Source: Phycisphaerae bacterium
GTDB lineage: Bacteria > Planctomycetota > Phycisphaerae > Sedimentisphaerales > Anaerobacaceae
Reading direction: 5' to 3'
Assembly: GCA_017993835.1 (NCBI GenBank)
Contig: JAGOLX010000006.1
Location: forward strand, 1-64,000
DNA length: 64,000 nucleotides
Position numbers and translations under genes: made by a program. How positions within the stretch are numbered: position 1 is the first letter of the stretch; each line of letters begins with the position of its first letter. The notes below the pieces were generated by a model that was given only the letters and a program-made list of their open reading frames with translations, had not been told where the DNA came from and did no database searches. Positions 8,885 through 32,600 of the stretch are shown here, piece by piece.

Positions 8885-8960
8885 GTCATTGCGAGCGAAG
8901 CGAAGCAATCTCCCATGCCGGGAATTGAGATTGCTTCGTCGCGATGCTCCTCGCAATGAC
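8885..8960. repeat. GTCATTGCGAG palindromic repeat, copy 1
   Basis: The arms GTCATTGCGAG (8885-8895) and CTCGCAATGAC (8950-8960) are exact inverted repeats. Inside them a second inverted pair, gaagcaatctc / gagattgcttc, makes the whole 76 bp a long palindrome. A diverged copy lies at 16641-16712. It sits between the cyclase and mlaE and could also end transcription. Confidence 0.8.
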
Positions 8961-16092: not shown

Positions 16093-16869
16093 GGCAGTTT
16101 CCTCCTTCTTGCCAACTTGCCCATAGTCCCTTCTTCACGGCACTGGGCCAGGACACAATTCAACATCGCACCGAGCGACCCCGTTCGGCGCGTGTCCGGG
16201 TCGCATCAGCGATAGGGAACCGGCATGCCACCAGCCGCGGCGGCAACCCGACAGGAACCGGCAGGACCGCCTGCTGCAAAGGACACCGAGGAACGAGAGC
16301 CGGCGCAGGAGCCGCGGAAGCGACAGCCAGGACCGAACAGCATATGCACCAACGAACACACCATATGGAATGAGCGTACAGCGGGGAACGACCTGGGGCA
16401 AGAAGAAACAAGATAGCGGAAGGCGGGTTATCGAGCGTTGGTTCACCACTTGTACAGCGAATGGCGTGTTTCGAGCAGAACGTCCCAGGATTTGTACAAT
16501 CCCAGGCTCATTGTACATGCGTCGGCTCGCCCCCCCCCAACGCGGGCGGGCGTCCTCCCCATTTCGGGCCGATCTGCCCGTGCGGGGTGGCCCCGCCGGC
16601 GAGCCAGTTCTCTGCGAGGCTATCCCAAAACAGCGCTCGGGCATGGCATTGCGCGCAGCGAAGCAATCTCCCGCTCGGGAGGTTGAGATTGCTTCGTCGC
16701 TGCGCTCCTCCTAAGAAGATGGGTTCTACAACGGATGTGGGAAACTGTCACAAGGGTTGCAGCTCCCGTGGCTTATGAATGCCCTCGTCGAAGCACCCAT
16801 TCTCTTTCTCCTACCCGACGCGAAGCGGCTTCCCGACTCGCAATGACATTCATCGTTTTGAGATAGTCT
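16093..16869. other. 777-bp intergenic region without a gene
   Basis: I found no gene with a plausible start or family. Contents are three TTGTACA heptamers (16450-16456, 16492-16498 and 16511-16517), the middle one inside cccagg-atttgtacaat-cccagg, and a diverged GTCATTGCGAG-type palindrome at 16641-16712. There is also a half copy of that repeat near 16810-16855. Confidence 0.5.
16641..16712. repeat. GTCATTGCGAG-type palindromic repeat, diverged copy 2
   Basis: The core inverted pair gaagcaatctc / gagattgcttcgtcgc is kept as in the 8885-8960 copy, while the outer arms have decayed (ggcattgcgcgcag and ctgcgctcctc). This shows the family has older and younger members in the window. Confidence 0.7.
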
Positions 16870-19695: not shown

Positions 19696-21099
19696 ATGAG
19701 AATCATTGCTGACGGGAATATCCCGTTCGTTCGTGAGTGTCTTTCTTCGGTTGGCGACGTGCAGATCGTGGGCGGTCGTGAGATTACGCCGAAGGTGGTG
19801 GCGGATGCCGATGCGTTGCTCGTCCGTAGCATCACGTCGGTGAACGAGCAACTGCTTCGCGGCAGTTCCGTGCGGTTCGTCGGGACGGCAACCATCGGCT
19901 TCGACCACGTGGACGTCGCGTATCTCGAAAGGAGGGGCATCGGCTTTGCCTCCGCGCCGGGCTCGAATGCCAACTCCGCGGCCGAGTACGTCATCACGGC
20001 TCTGCTGGAGGTCGCCCGTCGACGGCATTTGCGCCTGGAGGGCAAGTCCATTGGCGTGATCGGCGTGGGGAACGTGGGCAGCCGGGTGGCGAGCAAGTGC
20101 GAGGCGTTGGGCATGGAGGTCCGCAGGAATGATCCGCCTCTCGCTCGTAGCACGGGCATCTTGCCCGTGGCCATGCAGGGGCAGGACGCCCCTGCGACTT
20201 GTGGGCGGGACGCCCATGCTGCTACGGACCCGAAGTACGTTCCGCTTGAGGCCCTGTACGACTGCGACTTCATCACGTTCCACACGCCCTTGACGCGGGA
20301 GGGGATCGACAAGACGTTCCACCTGGCGGACGGCGGGTTCTTCTCGCGTCTGAAGGCGGGGGCGGTCCTCGTCAATGCCTCGCGGGGCGCGGTCGTCGAT
20401 TCGCAGGCCCTCAAGGCCGCGATCCAGGCGGGCCGATTGCAGGCGGTCGTGCTCGACGTTTGGGAGGGCGAGCCCAGCGTCGACGTGGATCTCCTGGAGA
20501 AGGTCGATCTTGCGACGCCTCACATCGCAGGCTATTCGTTCGACGGCAAGGTCGCCGGGATGATTATGATCTATCGGTCCCTCTGCGAGCATTTCGGCCT
20601 GACGCCGAAGCACGATGTGAAGGACTTTCTGCCCGCGCCGACGGTCCCGCGGCTGGAAGTCGAGACTGGCTCGGTTGGATCGGAAAAAGGCAGATCGGGC
20701 CTATATTCTTCAACGAAATCTCTTGGTTCGATTTCGTTGAAGAATGGAAACGACGAGACTCGCGACGCGCGACCGGGGTTTGAGGGGGAAGAATCGAACC
20801 AAGAGATTCTTCCCCCTCAAAGTAGGCCCGATCTGCCTTTTTCCGATCCCTCCGCGACCGACGAGGAGCTGCTCGCTTGTGTCGTGGAACGGATCTACAG
20901 CATCTCGCAGGACGACCGGAACACGCGACAGATCGCGGATCAGCCGGCGGAGGAGCGGGGTCGTTTCTTCGACTCGCTTCGCAAAAACTACCCGGTCCGG
21001 CGGGAGTTCCAGAACACGACCGTCGTGCTCGACCGACCGCGCGAGAGCCTGGCGCGGAAGCTCCGGGGCATCGGTTTTGTAGTGGACGCGGATTCGTAG
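19696..21099 (+). CDS. pdxB: 4-phosphoerythronate dehydrogenase with two in-frame repeat insertions
   Basis: A 467-residue homologue of PdxB, the NAD-dependent second enzyme of DXP-independent pyridoxal phosphate synthesis. Catalytic and NAD-binding regions are intact: VRSITSVNEQLL, FVGTATIGFDHVD, GVIGVGNVGSRVASK, FHTPLTREG, LVNASRGAVVD, LDVWEGEP, ATPHIAGYSFDGK, and the C-terminal LRKNYPVRREF of the PdxB dimerisation domain. The E. coli enzyme has 378 residues. The excess is explained by two inserts: residues 151-177 (STGILPV...GRDAHAA), encoded by an 81-bp palindromic element, and residues about 328-385, encoded by a 173-bp element. Without them the protein would be about 381 residues. Whether the enzyme still works is unknown. 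Confidence 0.9.
   Translation: MRIIADGNIPFVRECLSSVGDVQIVGGREITPKVVADADALLVRSITSVNEQLLRGSSVRFVGTATIGFDHVDVAYLERRGIGFASAPGSNANSAAEYVITALLEVARRRHLRLEGKSIGVIGVGNVGSRVASKCEALGMEVRRNDPPLARSTGILPVAMQGQDAPATCGRDAHAATDPKYVPLEALYDCDFITFHTPLTREGIDKTFHLADGGFFSRLKAGAVLVNASRGAVVDSQALKAAIQAGRLQAVVLDVWEGEPSVDVDLLEKVDLATPHIAGYSFDGKVAGMIMIYRSLCEHFGLTPKHDVKDFLPAPTVPRLEVETGSVGSEKGRSGLYSSTKSLGSISLKNGNDETRDARPGFEGEESNQEILPPQSRPDLPFSDPSATDEELLACVVERIYSISQDDRNTRQIADQPAEERGRFFDSLRKNYPVRREFQNTTVVLDRPRESLARKLRGIGFVVDADS
20146..20226 (+). repeat. 81-bp palindromic element inside pdxB
   Basis: Exactly 81 bp (27 codons), bounded by CGTAGCA (20146-20152) and its complement TGCTACG (20220-20226). Inside are three small hairpins: cacgggca/tgcccgtg, caggggc/gcccctg and tgggc/gccca. 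The reading frame is kept across it, and the encoded peptide interrupts a place where E. coli PdxB has no matching residues (between DPPLA and the region before the second NAD-contacting strand). Confidence 0.85.
20677..20849 (+). mobile_element. Kissing-loop palindromic element, copy 1 (inside pdxB)
   Basis: 173 bp with a perfect 27-bp terminal inverted repeat (20677-20703 and 20823-20849, core GGCAGATCGGGCCTA). Hairpin A has a 15-bp stem (20705-20719/20731-20745) and loop CTCTTGGTTCG. A 33-nt spacer follows. Hairpin B has a 16-bp stem (20779-20794/20806-20821) and loop CGAACCAAGAG. The two loops are exact reverse complements. There is no stop codon in the pdxB frame, so it is translated as about 58 residues between the catalytic part and the C-terminal domain. 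No transposase is encoded; mobility is inferred from dispersed copies. Confidence 0.88.
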
Positions 21100-21130: not shown

Positions 21131-21270
21131 TTGTCATCCTGAACGGAGCGTAGCGAAGAGAAGGATCTGGCCCGCGGTCGAGAGCCACTCCCCTCGTCCG
21201 TGCCAGATCCTTCGGCTGCGCCTCAGGATGACAGAGTCGGCGTCGTGTGCGGGTTTCTGCGGATCCGTGT
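21131..21270. repeat. CATCCTGA-type inverted repeat, copy 2
   Basis: The left arm TGTCATCCTGAACGGAGCG and the right arm CGCCTCAGGATGACA enclose aaggatctgg/ccagatcctt. The repeat matches the copy at 2036-2176 and continues with the same kind of right flank (encoding a peptide ending LRIRV). It ends about 40 bp upstream of folP and follows the pdxB stop. Confidence 0.78.
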
Positions 21271-22159: not shown

Positions 22160-22199
22160 TTGTGAGCGTCCGACGATGCCGCGCAATCCTGCCATTCAT

Positions 22200-24146
22200 T
22201 CACTCGTTCTCGTACCAGGCGATCTTGTCGTCCCCAGAAGAAGCCGAGAGGACGTCCATGTCACCATCGCCGTCCAGGTCCGCCGCATAGACGCATGTTG
22301 ACCGAGATGCCTTTGCAGTGATCACCTCCGGGGGGCCGAACTGGCTTTTCGCGTCGTTGGCATACCACTCGATCGTGGTGGACGAGGTAGAGGCCGAGAG
22401 GACGTCCAGGTCGCCGTCGGCATCCAGGTCCGCCGCATATGCGTGTCGTGCCCGAAATCGTGCCGTGGTGATCACCTGCTGGGGCCCGAACCGGCCCGTC
22501 CCGTCGTTGGCATACCAGGCAATCTTGTCGTCCCACCAGGAAGCCGAGAGGACATCCAGGTCGCCATCGCCATCGAGGTCCGCCGCATAGACGCATTGGG
22601 CCATAGCGGCCTCTGTGGAGATCACCTGCTGGGGTCCGAAGTGGCCCATCCCGTCGTTAGCATACCAGGCGATCTTGTGGTCCCAACTAGAAGCCGAGAG
22701 GACGTCCAAGTCGCCGTCACCGTCGAGATCCGCCGCATAGACAGACTGCGCCTCAGCCGCCTCTGTGGTGATCACCTGCTGAGGTCCGAACTGGCCCGCC
22801 CCGTCATTGGCATACCAAGCGACCTTGTTGTCCTCGGCAGAAGCCGAGAGGACGTCCAGGTCGCCATCACCGTCCAGGTCTGCCGCATAGACGCAGGTCG
22901 CCCCAGCGGCCGCGGCCGAGATCACCTGCTGGGGTCCGAACTGGCCCGTCCCATCGTTGGCGTACCAGGCGATCTTGCCATGGTACGAAGGATAGGAGCC
23001 GTCAGAAGCCGAGAGGACGTCCAGGTCGCCATCGCCGTCCAGGTCCGTCGCATAGACGCAGCTTGCCCCCCCGGCCTCTGTGGTGATCACCTGCTGGAGT
23101 CCGAATTCGCCGGTCCCATCGTTGGCATACCAGGCAATCTTGTCGTCTTCGCCGGAGGCCGATAGGACGTCCAGGTCGCCATCACCGTCCAGGTCCGCCG
23201 CATAGACGGATCGCGCGCAATCGGCCTCTGTGGTGATCACCTGCTGGGGCCCGAATTGGCCTGTCCCGTCGTTCGCATACCAGGCAATCTTGTCGTAAGA
23301 CGCGGAAGCCGAAAGGACATCCAGGTCGCCGTCGCCGTCCAGGTCCGCCGCATACACACAGCTCGCCGAATGGGCCTCTGTGGTGATCACCTGCTGGGGT
23401 CCGAACTGGCCCGTCCCGTCGTTGGTGTACCAGGCAATCTTGCCATCATCCCAAGAAGCCGAGAGGACGTCCAGGTCGCCATCACCGTCCAGGTCCGCCG
23501 CATAGACGCAGGTCGCCCAGTCAACTTCGGTGGAGATCACCTGCCCGGCCCCGAATTGGCCCGTCCCGTCGTTCGCACACCAGGCGATCTCGAAACAAGC
23601 CGAAGAGAGCACATCCAGGTTACCATCGCCGTCGAGGTCCGCCGCATAGACGCAGTCCGCCCCAGCGGTGGAGATCACCTGCTCGGGTCCGAAGTGGCCC
23701 GTCCCGTCATTGGCATACCAACCTACTCGGCCCCTGAGGTCGCGCGCTATCATACCGCCAGGTTGGGGGGTCCAGAGAACATCCAGGTCGCCATCACCGT
23801 CCAAGTCCGCCGCATGAACGTAAACGCATCCTTCGTCGAACTCGGCTTCTTCAGTGATCACCTGCAGGGGTCCGAATTGCCCTGTCCCGTTGTTGGCACA
23901 CCAGCCGATCTGGCAATGGTATGATGGAGGGTCGGGGCGGTAGGAGCCGGCACAAGCCAAGAGGAGGTCCAGGTCGCCATCGCCGTCCAAGTCAGCCGCA
24001 CAGACGGATGTTCGTCCATCGATCTCACGCTGTATAATGACATGTTGCTCCGGCTTGAAACCGCCCTGGAGCGCCGGGCAGAACGTAGACACCGCCAGCA
24101 GCAGAGCGAGTCTGCGCACGCTTCGGGGAGATGCGACCGCAACCAT
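22200..24146 (-). CDS. Secreted FG-GAP/VCBS repeat protein (12 repeats)
   Basis: A 648-residue secreted protein with an N-terminal signal peptide (RRLALLLAVSTFCPALQGG). It is otherwise a run of 12 repeats of about 47-50 residues built on VYAADLDGDGDLDVLSAS and IAWYANDGTGQFGPQQVIT. Each DxDGDGDxD loop is a predicted calcium site, and the repeats should form one or two beta-propellers. Repeats 4-10 are nearly identical to each other, including at DNA level (roughly 147-bp units), pointing to recent tandem expansion. GGAGG lies seven bases before ATG 24146. Function is unknown; surface adhesion or polysaccharide binding is common for such proteins. Confidence 0.9.
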   Translation of the reverse strand: MVAVASPRSVRRLALLLAVSTFCPALQGGFKPEQHVIIQREIDGRTSVCAADLDGDGDLDLLLACAGSYRPDPPSYHCQIGWCANNGTGQFGPLQVITEEAEFDEGCVYVHAADLDGDGDLDVLWTPQPGGMIARDLRGRVGWYANDGTGHFGPEQVISTAGADCVYAADLDGDGNLDVLSSACFEIAWCANDGTGQFGAGQVISTEVDWATCVYAADLDGDGDLDVLSASWDDGKIAWYTNDGTGQFGPQQVITTEAHSASCVYAADLDGDGDLDVLSASASYDKIAWYANDGTGQFGPQQVITTEADCARSVYAADLDGDGDLDVLSASGEDDKIAWYANDGTGEFGLQQVITTEAGGASCVYATDLDGDGDLDVLSASDGSYPSYHGKIAWYANDGTGQFGPQQVISAAAAGATCVYAADLDGDGDLDVLSASAEDNKVAWYANDGAGQFGPQQVITTEAAEAQSVYAADLDGDGDLDVLSASSWDHKIAWYANDGMGHFGPQQVISTEAAMAQCVYAADLDGDGDLDVLSASWWDDKIAWYANDGTGRFGPQQVITTARFRARHAYAADLDADGDLDVLSASTSSTTIEWYANDAKSQFGPPEVITAKASRSTCVYAADLDGDGDMDVLSASSGDDKIAWYENE

Positions 24147-24362: not shown

Positions 24363-24537
24363 ACTTGGCGAAAAAGGCAGATCGGGCCTACTTTGGGAGG
24401 GAAAAATCTCTTCATCGATTTTTCCCTCCCAAACCACGCTCGCGCGCCGAGAGATTCGACCCTTCCATTCTTCCACGAAATCGAACCAAGAGATTTCGTG
24501 GAAGAATATAGGCCCGATCTGCCTTCTTCACCAAGTC
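24363..24537 (-). mobile_element. Kissing-loop palindromic element, copy 2 (3' of lon)
   Basis: Inverted relative to copies 1 and 3. The outer arms (from 24363 and to 24537) share GGCAGATCGGGCCTA and extend with mismatches to CTTGG/CCAAG. On the plus strand the first hairpin is TTTGGGAGGGAAAAAT with loop CTCTTCATCG; after 33 nt comes ATTCTTCCACGAAAT with loop CGAACCAAGAG. Relative to the other copies its stems carry three base-pair changes, each matched on the opposite arm. It ends 11 bp from the lon stop codon and may act as its 3' end structure. Confidence 0.85.
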
Positions 24538-29450: not shown

Positions 29451-29622
29451 GGATCGGAAAAAGGCAGATCGTGCCTATATTCTTCAACGAAATCTCTTGG
29501 TTCGATTTCGTTGAAGAATCATACTGACAAATGTCCCGACGCGCGACCGGGGTTTGAGGGGGAAAAATCGAACCAAGAGATTTTTCCCCCTCAAAGTAGG
29601 CCCGATCTGCCTTTTTCCGATC
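29451..29622 (+). mobile_element. Kissing-loop palindromic element, copy 3 (overlaps carB stop)
   Basis: 172 bp in the same orientation as copy 1. Terminal arms are at 29451-29477 and 29597-29622, with one mismatch. Hairpin A (29479-29493/29505-29519) is identical to copy 1, including loop CTCTTGGTTCG. A 33-nt spacer follows, then hairpin B (29553-29568/29580-29595, loop CGAACCAAGAG) with one base pair changed on both arms relative to copy 1 (GAAGAAT to GAAAAAT). The right arm reaches into the carB stop codon (29621-29623). Confidence 0.87.
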
Positions 29623-32600
29623 ACTTGATCCCTGCGTGGTAGCTCTGGAGGGACCGGACGGGGGCGACGTTGGTCCTGGCCTCGGCGATTCCCTTGACCG
29701 CGGCCACCGCGGCGGCGGTCGTCGTGATGTAGGAGACCTTGTACTTGATCGCGGTCTTGCGGATGTAGGAGTCGTCGGTCTTGCTGAGCTTGCCGGCGGG
29801 GGTGTTGACGACGAGCTGGATCTCGCCGTTCTTGATGGCGTCGGCGATGTTGGGTCGGCCCTCGTACATCTTGAGAATGGGCTCGGCCTGGACCCCGCCT
29901 GCGGCGAGGAACTTGCACGTCCCTTCCGTCGCCTTGATGCGGAACCCGAGACGCTGGAACTCCTTGGCGGCCTTGAGGGCGTCCTTCTTGTCCGCTTCGG
30001 TCACGGTGATCAGCACGGTGCCCTCCAGGGGCAGCTCCGATTTCGCGGCCAACTGCGACTTGTAGAAGGCCAGGCCGAAGGAGTTGGCCATGCCCAGGAC
30101 CTCGCCGGTCGAGCGCATCTCCGGGCCGAGCAGCGGGTCCACCTCCGGGAACATGTTGAACGGGAAGACCGCTTCCTTGACGCCGAAATGCGGGATCTTG
30201 CGCTGTTTGAGCCCGAGTTCCGCGAGCTTCTTGCCGAGCATGCACTGGACCGCGGCCCGCGCCATCTGGATGTTGCAGACCTTCGAGACCAGCGGGACAG
30301 TCCGCGAGGCCCGCGGATTGGCTTCGAGGATGTAGACCACGTCCTTGCAGATTGCGTACTGGATGTTCATCAGGCCGACGACATTCAGCTCGACCGCGAT
30401 CCGACGGGTGTACTCGTTGATCGTGTCGATGTGCTTCTTCGGGATGCTCACCGGCGGGATGACGCAGGCGGAGTCGCCCGAGTGGATGCCGGCCAGCTCG
30501 ATGTGCTCCATGACCGCCGGGACGAAGGCGCCGGAGCCGTCCGCGATGGCGTCGGCCTCGGTCTCGATGGCGTTTTCGAGGAACTTGTCGATCAGGATGG
30601 GCCGCTCCGGCGAGACCTCGACCGCCTTGGCGACGTAGAGGCGGAGCATCTCCTCGTCGTGGACGACCTCCATGGCCCGACCGCCCAGGACGAAGGAGGG
30701 TCGGACCATCAGCGGATAGCCGATTTCCCCGGCGATCTGGACCGCCTCTTCCGGACTGCCCGCCATGCCCGACTCCGGCTGCGGAATCTCCATCTTGCGG
30801 ATGGCGACGCGGAATCGGTCGCGGTCCTCCGCCAGGTCGATGGCCTCGGGCGAGGTGCCGATGATCTTGACGCCGGCCTTGGCCAGCTCGGTCGCGAGGT
30901 TCAGCGGGGTCTGGCCGCCGAACTGGACGATGACGCCCTCGGGCTTCTCCTTCTCGTAGATGCTCAGGACGTCCTCGACGGTCAGCGGCTCGAAGTACAG
31001 CTTGTCCGAGGTGTCGTAGTCGGTGGACACGGTCTCGGGGTTGCAGTTGACCATGATGGACTCGAAGCCCTCGTCGCGGAGCGTGAAGGCGGCGTGGACA
31101 CAGCAGTAGTCGAACTCGATGCCCTGTCCGATGCGGTTGGGACCGCCGCCGAGGACCATGATCTTACGCCGATTGCTGACCGGGACCTTGTCGGGTCCGT
31201 TGTAGGTGGAGTAGTAATAGGCCGCGTTCTCGACGCCGCTGACGGGGACCGCGTCCCAGGCCTCGACAACGCCCAGCTCGATCCGGCGGGCGCGGAGATC
31301 GGCCTCCGGGACCCCGAGCAGCCTGGCCAGGTACTTGTCGGCGAACCCGTCCTTCTTCGCCTGAATCAGGAGCTTATCGGGCAGCTTCTTGCCCTTGTAC
31401 TTGAGAATCTCCTCCTCCAGGGCGACCAGCTCCGCCATTTGCTGGATGAACCAGTGCTTGATCCGGGTCTTCTCGTAAATCGCCTGCACGCTTGCGCCTT
31501 TGCGCAAGGCCTCGTACATGACGAACTGCCGTTCGCTCGTCGGGTAGGTCAGCAAAGCCATCAGCTCGTCCAGAGACAGCTTGTTGAAGTTCTTCGCAAA
31601 ACCCAGCCCGTAGCGCCCGATTTCGAGTGAGCGGATGGCCTTCTGGAAGGCCTCCTTGTAGTTCTTGCCGATGCTCATCGCCTCGCCGACCGCGCGCATC
31701 TGGGTGCCGAGACGGTCCTCGACGCCCTTGAACTTCTCGAAGGCCCAGCGAGCGAACTTGACGACGACGTAGTCGCCCCAGGGGGTGTACTTGTCGAGCG
31801 TGCCGTCCCGCCAGTAGGGAATCTCGTCCAAGGTCATTCCGGTGGCCAGCATGGAGGAGACCATCGCGATGGGGAAGCCGGTAGCCTTCGAGGCCAGCGC
31901 CGAGGACCGGCTCGTACGCGGGTTGATCTCGATAACGACCACGCGACCGGTCGCGGGATCGTGGGCGAATTGGACGTTCGTGCCGCCGATGACTTCGATG
32001 GCGTCCACGATGTCGTAGGAGTACTTCTGGAGCTGTTCCTGGAGGGTGGTATCGATGGTCAGCATGGGTGCGGTGCAGTAGGAATCGCCCGTGTGGACGC
32101 CCATCGGATCGACGTTCTCGATGAAGCAGACGGTGATTTTCTGGCCCTTGGCGTCGCGGACGACCTCGAGTTCCAGCTCTTCCCAGCCCAGGACGGACTC
32201 TTCCACGAGGATCTGGTGGACGAGGCTGACGGCCAGACCCCGGCTGGCGATGGTTCGCAGCTCCTCGACGTTGAAGACGGCGCCGCCGCCGGTGCCGCCC
32301 ATGGTGTAGGCGGGACGAATGATGGCTGGATAACCGATCTTCTCCGCGATCTTCTCCGCTTCTTCGACGCTGTAGGCGATCTCGCTTCGCGGCATGTCGA
32401 TGCCCAGACGCTGCATGGTGTCCTTGAAGGCCTGACGGTCCTCGCCCCGTTTGATCGCGTCGACCTTGACGCCGATGACCTGGACGCCGTACTGATCCAG
32501 GACGCCCGCGGCCGCGAGTTCCGACGCCAGATTCAGTCCCGTCTGCCCGCCCAGATTCGGCAACAGGGCATCCGGACGCTCGACCTTGATGATCTCGGTC

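Follow-up and report, generated by a model that had tools for sequence, protein, structure and literature searches.

The 64,000-nucleotide stretch analysed here (the window) carries a pdxB gene interrupted in frame by two palindromic inserts (Table 1). Its product displays the Pfam domains 2-Hacid_dh, 2-Hacid_dh_C and DUF3410 and matches PDB entries 3oet, 5dt9 and 2o4c; the NCBIfam PdxB model is its top match, yet under that model's cut-off. The first insert considered, copy 1 of a palindromic element, contributes 58 codons (peptide GSEKGRSGLYSSTKSLGSISLKNG...PPQSRPDLPFSDP), a net gain of ~60 residues relative to empty PdxB orthologues. It separates the catalytic part from the DUF3410 dimerisation domain and, on structure 3oet, the insertion point falls between chain residues 302 and 308, where the part aligned with the catalytic core gives way to the C-terminal domain. 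The reading frame runs without a break from start to stop, element included. This bears out the claims of an earlier note on this DNA that the frame is open across the element and followed by the PdxB C-terminal part, and that about 58 residues are added between catalytic core and dimerisation domain. Structure prediction of PdxB (two sequences) gave a mean pLDDT of 39.5 and was unusable.

Two more copies of the element lie in the window. The earlier note was right that copy 3 is open in the frame equivalent to that of copy 1, but this is no evidence of coding, since it is open solely as a 94-codon ORF between genes. The window holds other repeats: a dispersed inverted-repeat family GCGAAGCGAAGCAATCTCCC... 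is found at 8895-8952 and 16653-16710, another (TCATCCTGAACGGAGCG...GGATCTGG) at 2039-2170 and 21139-21270, and a tandem array of ~150-nt units (22165-24006) lies in an ORF of the minus strand (22200-24146) that probably encodes a repeat protein.

Table 1. Position of pdxB, of its inserts and of the element copies and their stems in the window
Feature	Position	Strand	Remarks
pdxB, 4-phosphoerythronate dehydrogenase	19696..21099	+	467 codons; two in-frame palindromic inserts
Second in-frame pdxB insert GILPVAMQGQDAPATCGRDAHAAT	20155..20226	+	about 24 codons; different palindromic family
Palindromic element copy 1	20677..20851	+	in frame within pdxB
Outer stem 5' arm	20677..20704	+	partner 20822-20849; consensus structure, covariation
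Hairpin 1	20706..20744	+	15 bp, 9-nt loop; consensus structure, covariation
Hairpin 2	20781..20819	+	15 bp, 9-nt loop; consensus structure, covariation
Outer stem 3' arm	20822..20849	+	consensus structure, covariation
Element copy 2	24370..24529	-	lies in no recognisable gene
Element copy 3	29451..29625	+	between genes; 94-codon ORF

The earlier note had proposed aligning pdxB orthologues to look for empty sites. This alignment reveals an empty site in the PdxB of six same-genus species, none of which carries an unrelated insert at that place: the empty orthologues read TGDAG-DEELL or similar at the junction, versus TGSV-(58 residues)-SATDEELL in the window. The sister species UBA2218 (G005), a separate assembly, harbors the insert at the identical pdxB site (locus L096, G005:C336). 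Outside the inserts, the two filled genes differ with a dN of 0.076 and a dS of 0.70 (ratio 0.109), similar to the ratio of 0.087 between two empty orthologues. A search of the source genome found no second PdxB. PdxJ is present and PdxS absent, and the genome thus appears to rely on the PdxB-dependent route, the sole de novo B6 route found. Because of this low ratio, the single PdxB and the single route, the filled pdxB is judged, by sequence, to be under strong purifying selection and functional, and not the pseudogene considered in the earlier note.

About 40 copies of the element occur in the GC-rich 6.37 Mb source genome, so the repeat is not due to chance. Of the 9 genomes that represent the genus, 7 contain it, and the 90 others from the family and order all lack it; its peptide is likewise absent from a further class sample (0 of 297 genomes, one of which belongs to the genus). 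A peptide search of 84,980 genomes returned solely Planctomycetota/Phycisphaerales records, UBA2218 included, and viral, phage and plasmid collections held no relatives. Within the genomes searched, the element is therefore found only in this genus of Phycisphaerae (Planctomycetota). A divergent subfamily shares the architecture and has other ends (TTCTGCAAAATGGAGATTAGGCCTA); it is represented by L064, L070, L078, L079 and L083 in relatives and L027 in the source genome, and the copies inspected all lie outside recognised genes.

The element is a 174-base self-complementary repeat, in which an outer stem encloses two hairpins. The copy 1 strand folds with -113 kcal/mol (z -13.4), a stability equalled by 0 of 200 shuffles, and the consensus structure of 35 copies comprises a 28-pair outer stem and two 15-pair hairpins, 58 pairs in total. 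Both-sided changes are observed in 33 of these 58 pairs, across the three helices; counted by cells, there are 184 double changes (48 in shuffles), 26 one-sided changes of the G-U type and 77 unpaired. An RNA structure kept by selection should favour G-U pairs above other mismatches. The stems show no such preference, and their covariation thus points to the DNA level. The loops of the two copy 1 hairpins are complementary, and their kissing was considered as a mechanism and dropped, as they are not conserved in other copies. Pairing extends beyond the core: among 32 copies of the main subfamily, positions 3-7 outside it are complementary 116 times versus 72 expected from exchanging flanks among copies. 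In a GH127 gene, the right flank of the filled site (CGTCA) repeats the left one (TGACG) in reverse complement and is missing at the empty site. Template-switch extension of quasi-palindromes has been reported in a yeast study (PMC3820800), and such extension, or an insertion that copies the flank, could explain the flank complementarity.

The divergence of the element itself also sets it apart from its hosts. Its synonymous divergence in the pdxB pair is 0.073, versus 0.70 in the host (P 2e-7), and in the GH127 pair 0.35 versus 0.77 (P 0.01). In the pdxB pair its dN (0.064) nearly equals its dS, which argues that conservation bears on the DNA and not on the encoded protein, or that the element is homogenised; a nucleotide-level function or gene conversion could also account for the low dS. 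The element might be maintained as a functional RNA or DNA structure, such as an attenuator, an RNase III site or a protein-binding site, the coding capacity being incidental. The compensatory changes in three helices and the tenfold lower synonymous divergence of the element relative to its host would fit such a role. It is nevertheless improbable, given that the hosts share no pathway or gene position, the same genes exist in species lacking the element, G-U pairs are not favoured, and the window has no match in Rfam.

In the source genome, at least 12 proteins that host the element in frame can be recognised by their domains or signals, and several are core enzymes. Pfam domains flank the insert or extend across it. 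By Pfam, the element lies inside or adjoining domains of NadE, a PfkB/HAD protein, PurQ (whose GATase_5 domain it splits), a beta-propeller/cytochrome c protein, an FeFe hydrogenase, GH127, FtsK, a radical SAM/SPASM protein, an F5/8-domain protein and a DUF6298-type protein. Both URO-D and an Exo_endo_phos protein hold it in inverted orientation, read in the frame called -0, and in a twelfth protein (L012) it immediately precedes, by eye, a twin-arginine-like signal. In related genomes, it is found at two different sites of an MTHFR-like gene, in MurC ahead of an assembly gap, and in the cytochrome c orthologue at a site that differs from that of the source genome. Every host site tested has an empty orthologue within the genus. 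NadE is filled in the source genome and empty in the sister species, and copy 1 matches its pdxB orthologue (94% identity) no more closely than it does the NadE copy of the source genome (95%), which indicates that the family moved after the two species split.

The 18 in-gene copies analysed all have a length of exactly 174 nt and are free of stops, whereas among 13 other copies 9 have a length not divisible by three and 8 hold stops, a contrast that is partly circular because open frames helped to recognise the hosts. Two further in-gene copies (L012 and L016) are one base shorter and exit in another frame, and the flanking sequence restores that of the host; longer inserts with an extra 27 nt (L029) or about 24 nt (L081) also leave the host in frame. 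In-gene copies usually share strand and frame relative to their host, with an orientation bias of 12 to 2 in the source genome (P 0.013) and 16 to 2 when relatives are included (P 0.0013), despite the fact that the reverse frame of the element is usually open too. These data bear on whether the protein lacks the insert because the element is lost ahead of translation or in its course, either through ribosome bypassing or through excision from the RNA at the hairpin followed by re-ligation. In favour of removal, in-gene copies are conserved as DNA, and the transcript holds a very stable hairpin (-113 kcal/mol) for a ribosome to unfold. Removal would, however, require neither an open frame nor a fixed length, both of which are kept by the 18 copies, the four length-changed copies leave their hosts in frame as well, and the host flanks, which vary from copy to copy, are ill-suited to a defined splice site. 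Splicing or excision is thus disfavoured, and we consider it quite unlikely.

A third possibility, that PdxB and the other hosts have recruited the added peptide to some useful end, is less likely still. The insert peptide shows 82% mean column identity among in-gene copies, and variation at third codon positions is in slight, weak excess; these observations would agree with recruitment, but the near equality of dN and dS in the pdxB pair places the conservation at the DNA level, the hosts are unrelated, and sister species lack the insert. That assembly or binning produced an artefact, or that pdxB has decayed, is hardly credible: the source genome is a draft (115 contigs, 3% estimated contamination), but UBA2218, assembled separately, has the insert at the same site, both filled genes are under strong purifying selection, and the frame is open with normal flanks.

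The reading that we favour, with a probability of roughly 0.8, is a dispersed, non-autonomous palindromic insertion element, similar in behaviour to the Rickettsia palindromic elements (RPE), and probably read through in its host proteins. According to this proposal, the ribosome would read through the element and the protein would gain about 58 residues; in-gene copies would survive only where the host frame stays open and the site is a tolerant loop or linker. In pdxB, the element would lengthen the short linker that joins the catalytic part to the dimerisation domain, the enzyme staying under selection. Spread would be selfish and performed in trans by some enzyme, and the complementarity of the arms would be maintained at the DNA level, by template-switching at hairpins or by their correction, and not because an RNA function requires it. 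A search for the transposase of the element found none, and the five Y1 transposase genes of the genome have no copy in their 1.5 kb flanks; a RAYT link was dropped on this ground. No autonomous relative was seen among the repeat matches of the genome. The ends of the element are inverted, and pairs of filled and empty sites display, by eye, no consistent target-site duplication.

Other palindromic families have entered the same genes. The insert GILPVAMQGQDAPATCGRDAHAAT in pdxB, overlooked by the earlier note, is missing from the orthologues of other species except UBA2218. Relatives of its peptide are found in 13 of 150 class genomes, often in many copies, many of which lie outside long open frames. 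At some host sites, orthologues hold another palindrome in place of the element. The MTHFR-like gene (loci L123-L125, L128 and L129) exemplifies this: at one site, the source genome has an element remnant with another palindrome nested inside; at the other, a related genome (G004) has a different core between the same ends and the source genome a different inverted repeat. Another palindromic family, with the peptide KVRRSEGEKV...VRPSDLLNFSPS (L136-L147), has 15 matches in the source genome, many in long open frames, including one copy in the same NadE that holds the focal element. In the C-terminal part of PdxB, other species carry extra in-frame segments, SLRGAQRRSN... and KVDSRLRGND... (L039 in G003 and L045 in G024), which look like dispersed repeats. 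Palindromes with perfect arms of at least 13 reach 44 per Mb in 460 kb of the source genome, versus 5 and 10 in 200 kb of each of two family relatives, and 3 of 20 in the scan lie within open coding frames; palindromes are thus enriched in this genome, and long coding ones are not pervasive. A scan with arms of at least 16 gave too few cases to be useful. A broader scenario is conceivable but rather doubtful, namely a second independent origin of mobile palindromes that insert peptides, in Planctomycetota, with several unrelated families competing for the same tolerant loops and spreading through a hairpin mechanism that leaves no target duplication and writes host flank into the stem.

Core enzymes, among them PdxB, NadE and PurQ, would gain entire peptides from apparently selfish DNA elements. 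We regard the repeat as a family of coding palindromic elements that is new and belongs to a new lineage, its kinship to RPE being judged by behaviour. In-frame palindromes were presented as peculiar to Rickettsia by Ogata et al. (2002; cited in PMC10969869), whose title speaks of "a unique but recurrent feature", and a 2024 review describes the same mechanism elsewhere as merely "conceivable" (PMC10969869). The earlier note knew of no described equivalent in this lineage, and a literature search limited to open-access papers found none either. As filled and empty sites coexist in sister species of an unrelated phylum, the effect on the protein, the rate and the chemistry of insertion become testable.

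Several known systems share part of these features. Coxiella QMITEs, enterobacterial ERIC and ORF-carrying MITEs are also short inverted repeats, sometimes fused in frame (PMC5896051, PMC10969869), but they are mostly intergenic, at gene ends or in hypothetical genes, whereas the present element has at least 12 in-frame hosts in one genome. REP sequences associated with RAYT are likewise dispersed palindromes in genomes with Y1 transposase genes; the present element is far longer and sits inside genes, and the 1.5 kb flanks of the five Y1 genes contain no copy. The coding palindromes of nematomorph mitochondria are long inverted repeats within coding sequence too (PMC6649704), but those repeats are embedded in the genes of animal mitochondria, whereas here one dispersed family recurs in many unrelated genes. 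RPE are palindromes of about 100-150 bp that fall into several families. They sit in frame in conserved genes unrelated to one another, whose frames stay intact, and orthologues can hold different families at a given site or close to it (PMC10969869, PMC3767692). RPE in the strict sense belong to Rickettsiales, an order outside the range of the peptide matches. They differ from the present element, a 174 bp family of one genus of Planctomycetota with a GC-rich genome of 6.4 Mb, by their occurrence in Alphaproteobacteria and by their architecture, the outer stem here enclosing two hairpins. What is shared with RPE and with their Wolbachia counterparts (WPE) is behaviour, and the likeness that the earlier note had drawn holds at that level: a multi-copy palindrome family, many in-frame and unrelated conserved hosts with open frames and empty sites and, for pdxB, a host that is probably still functional.
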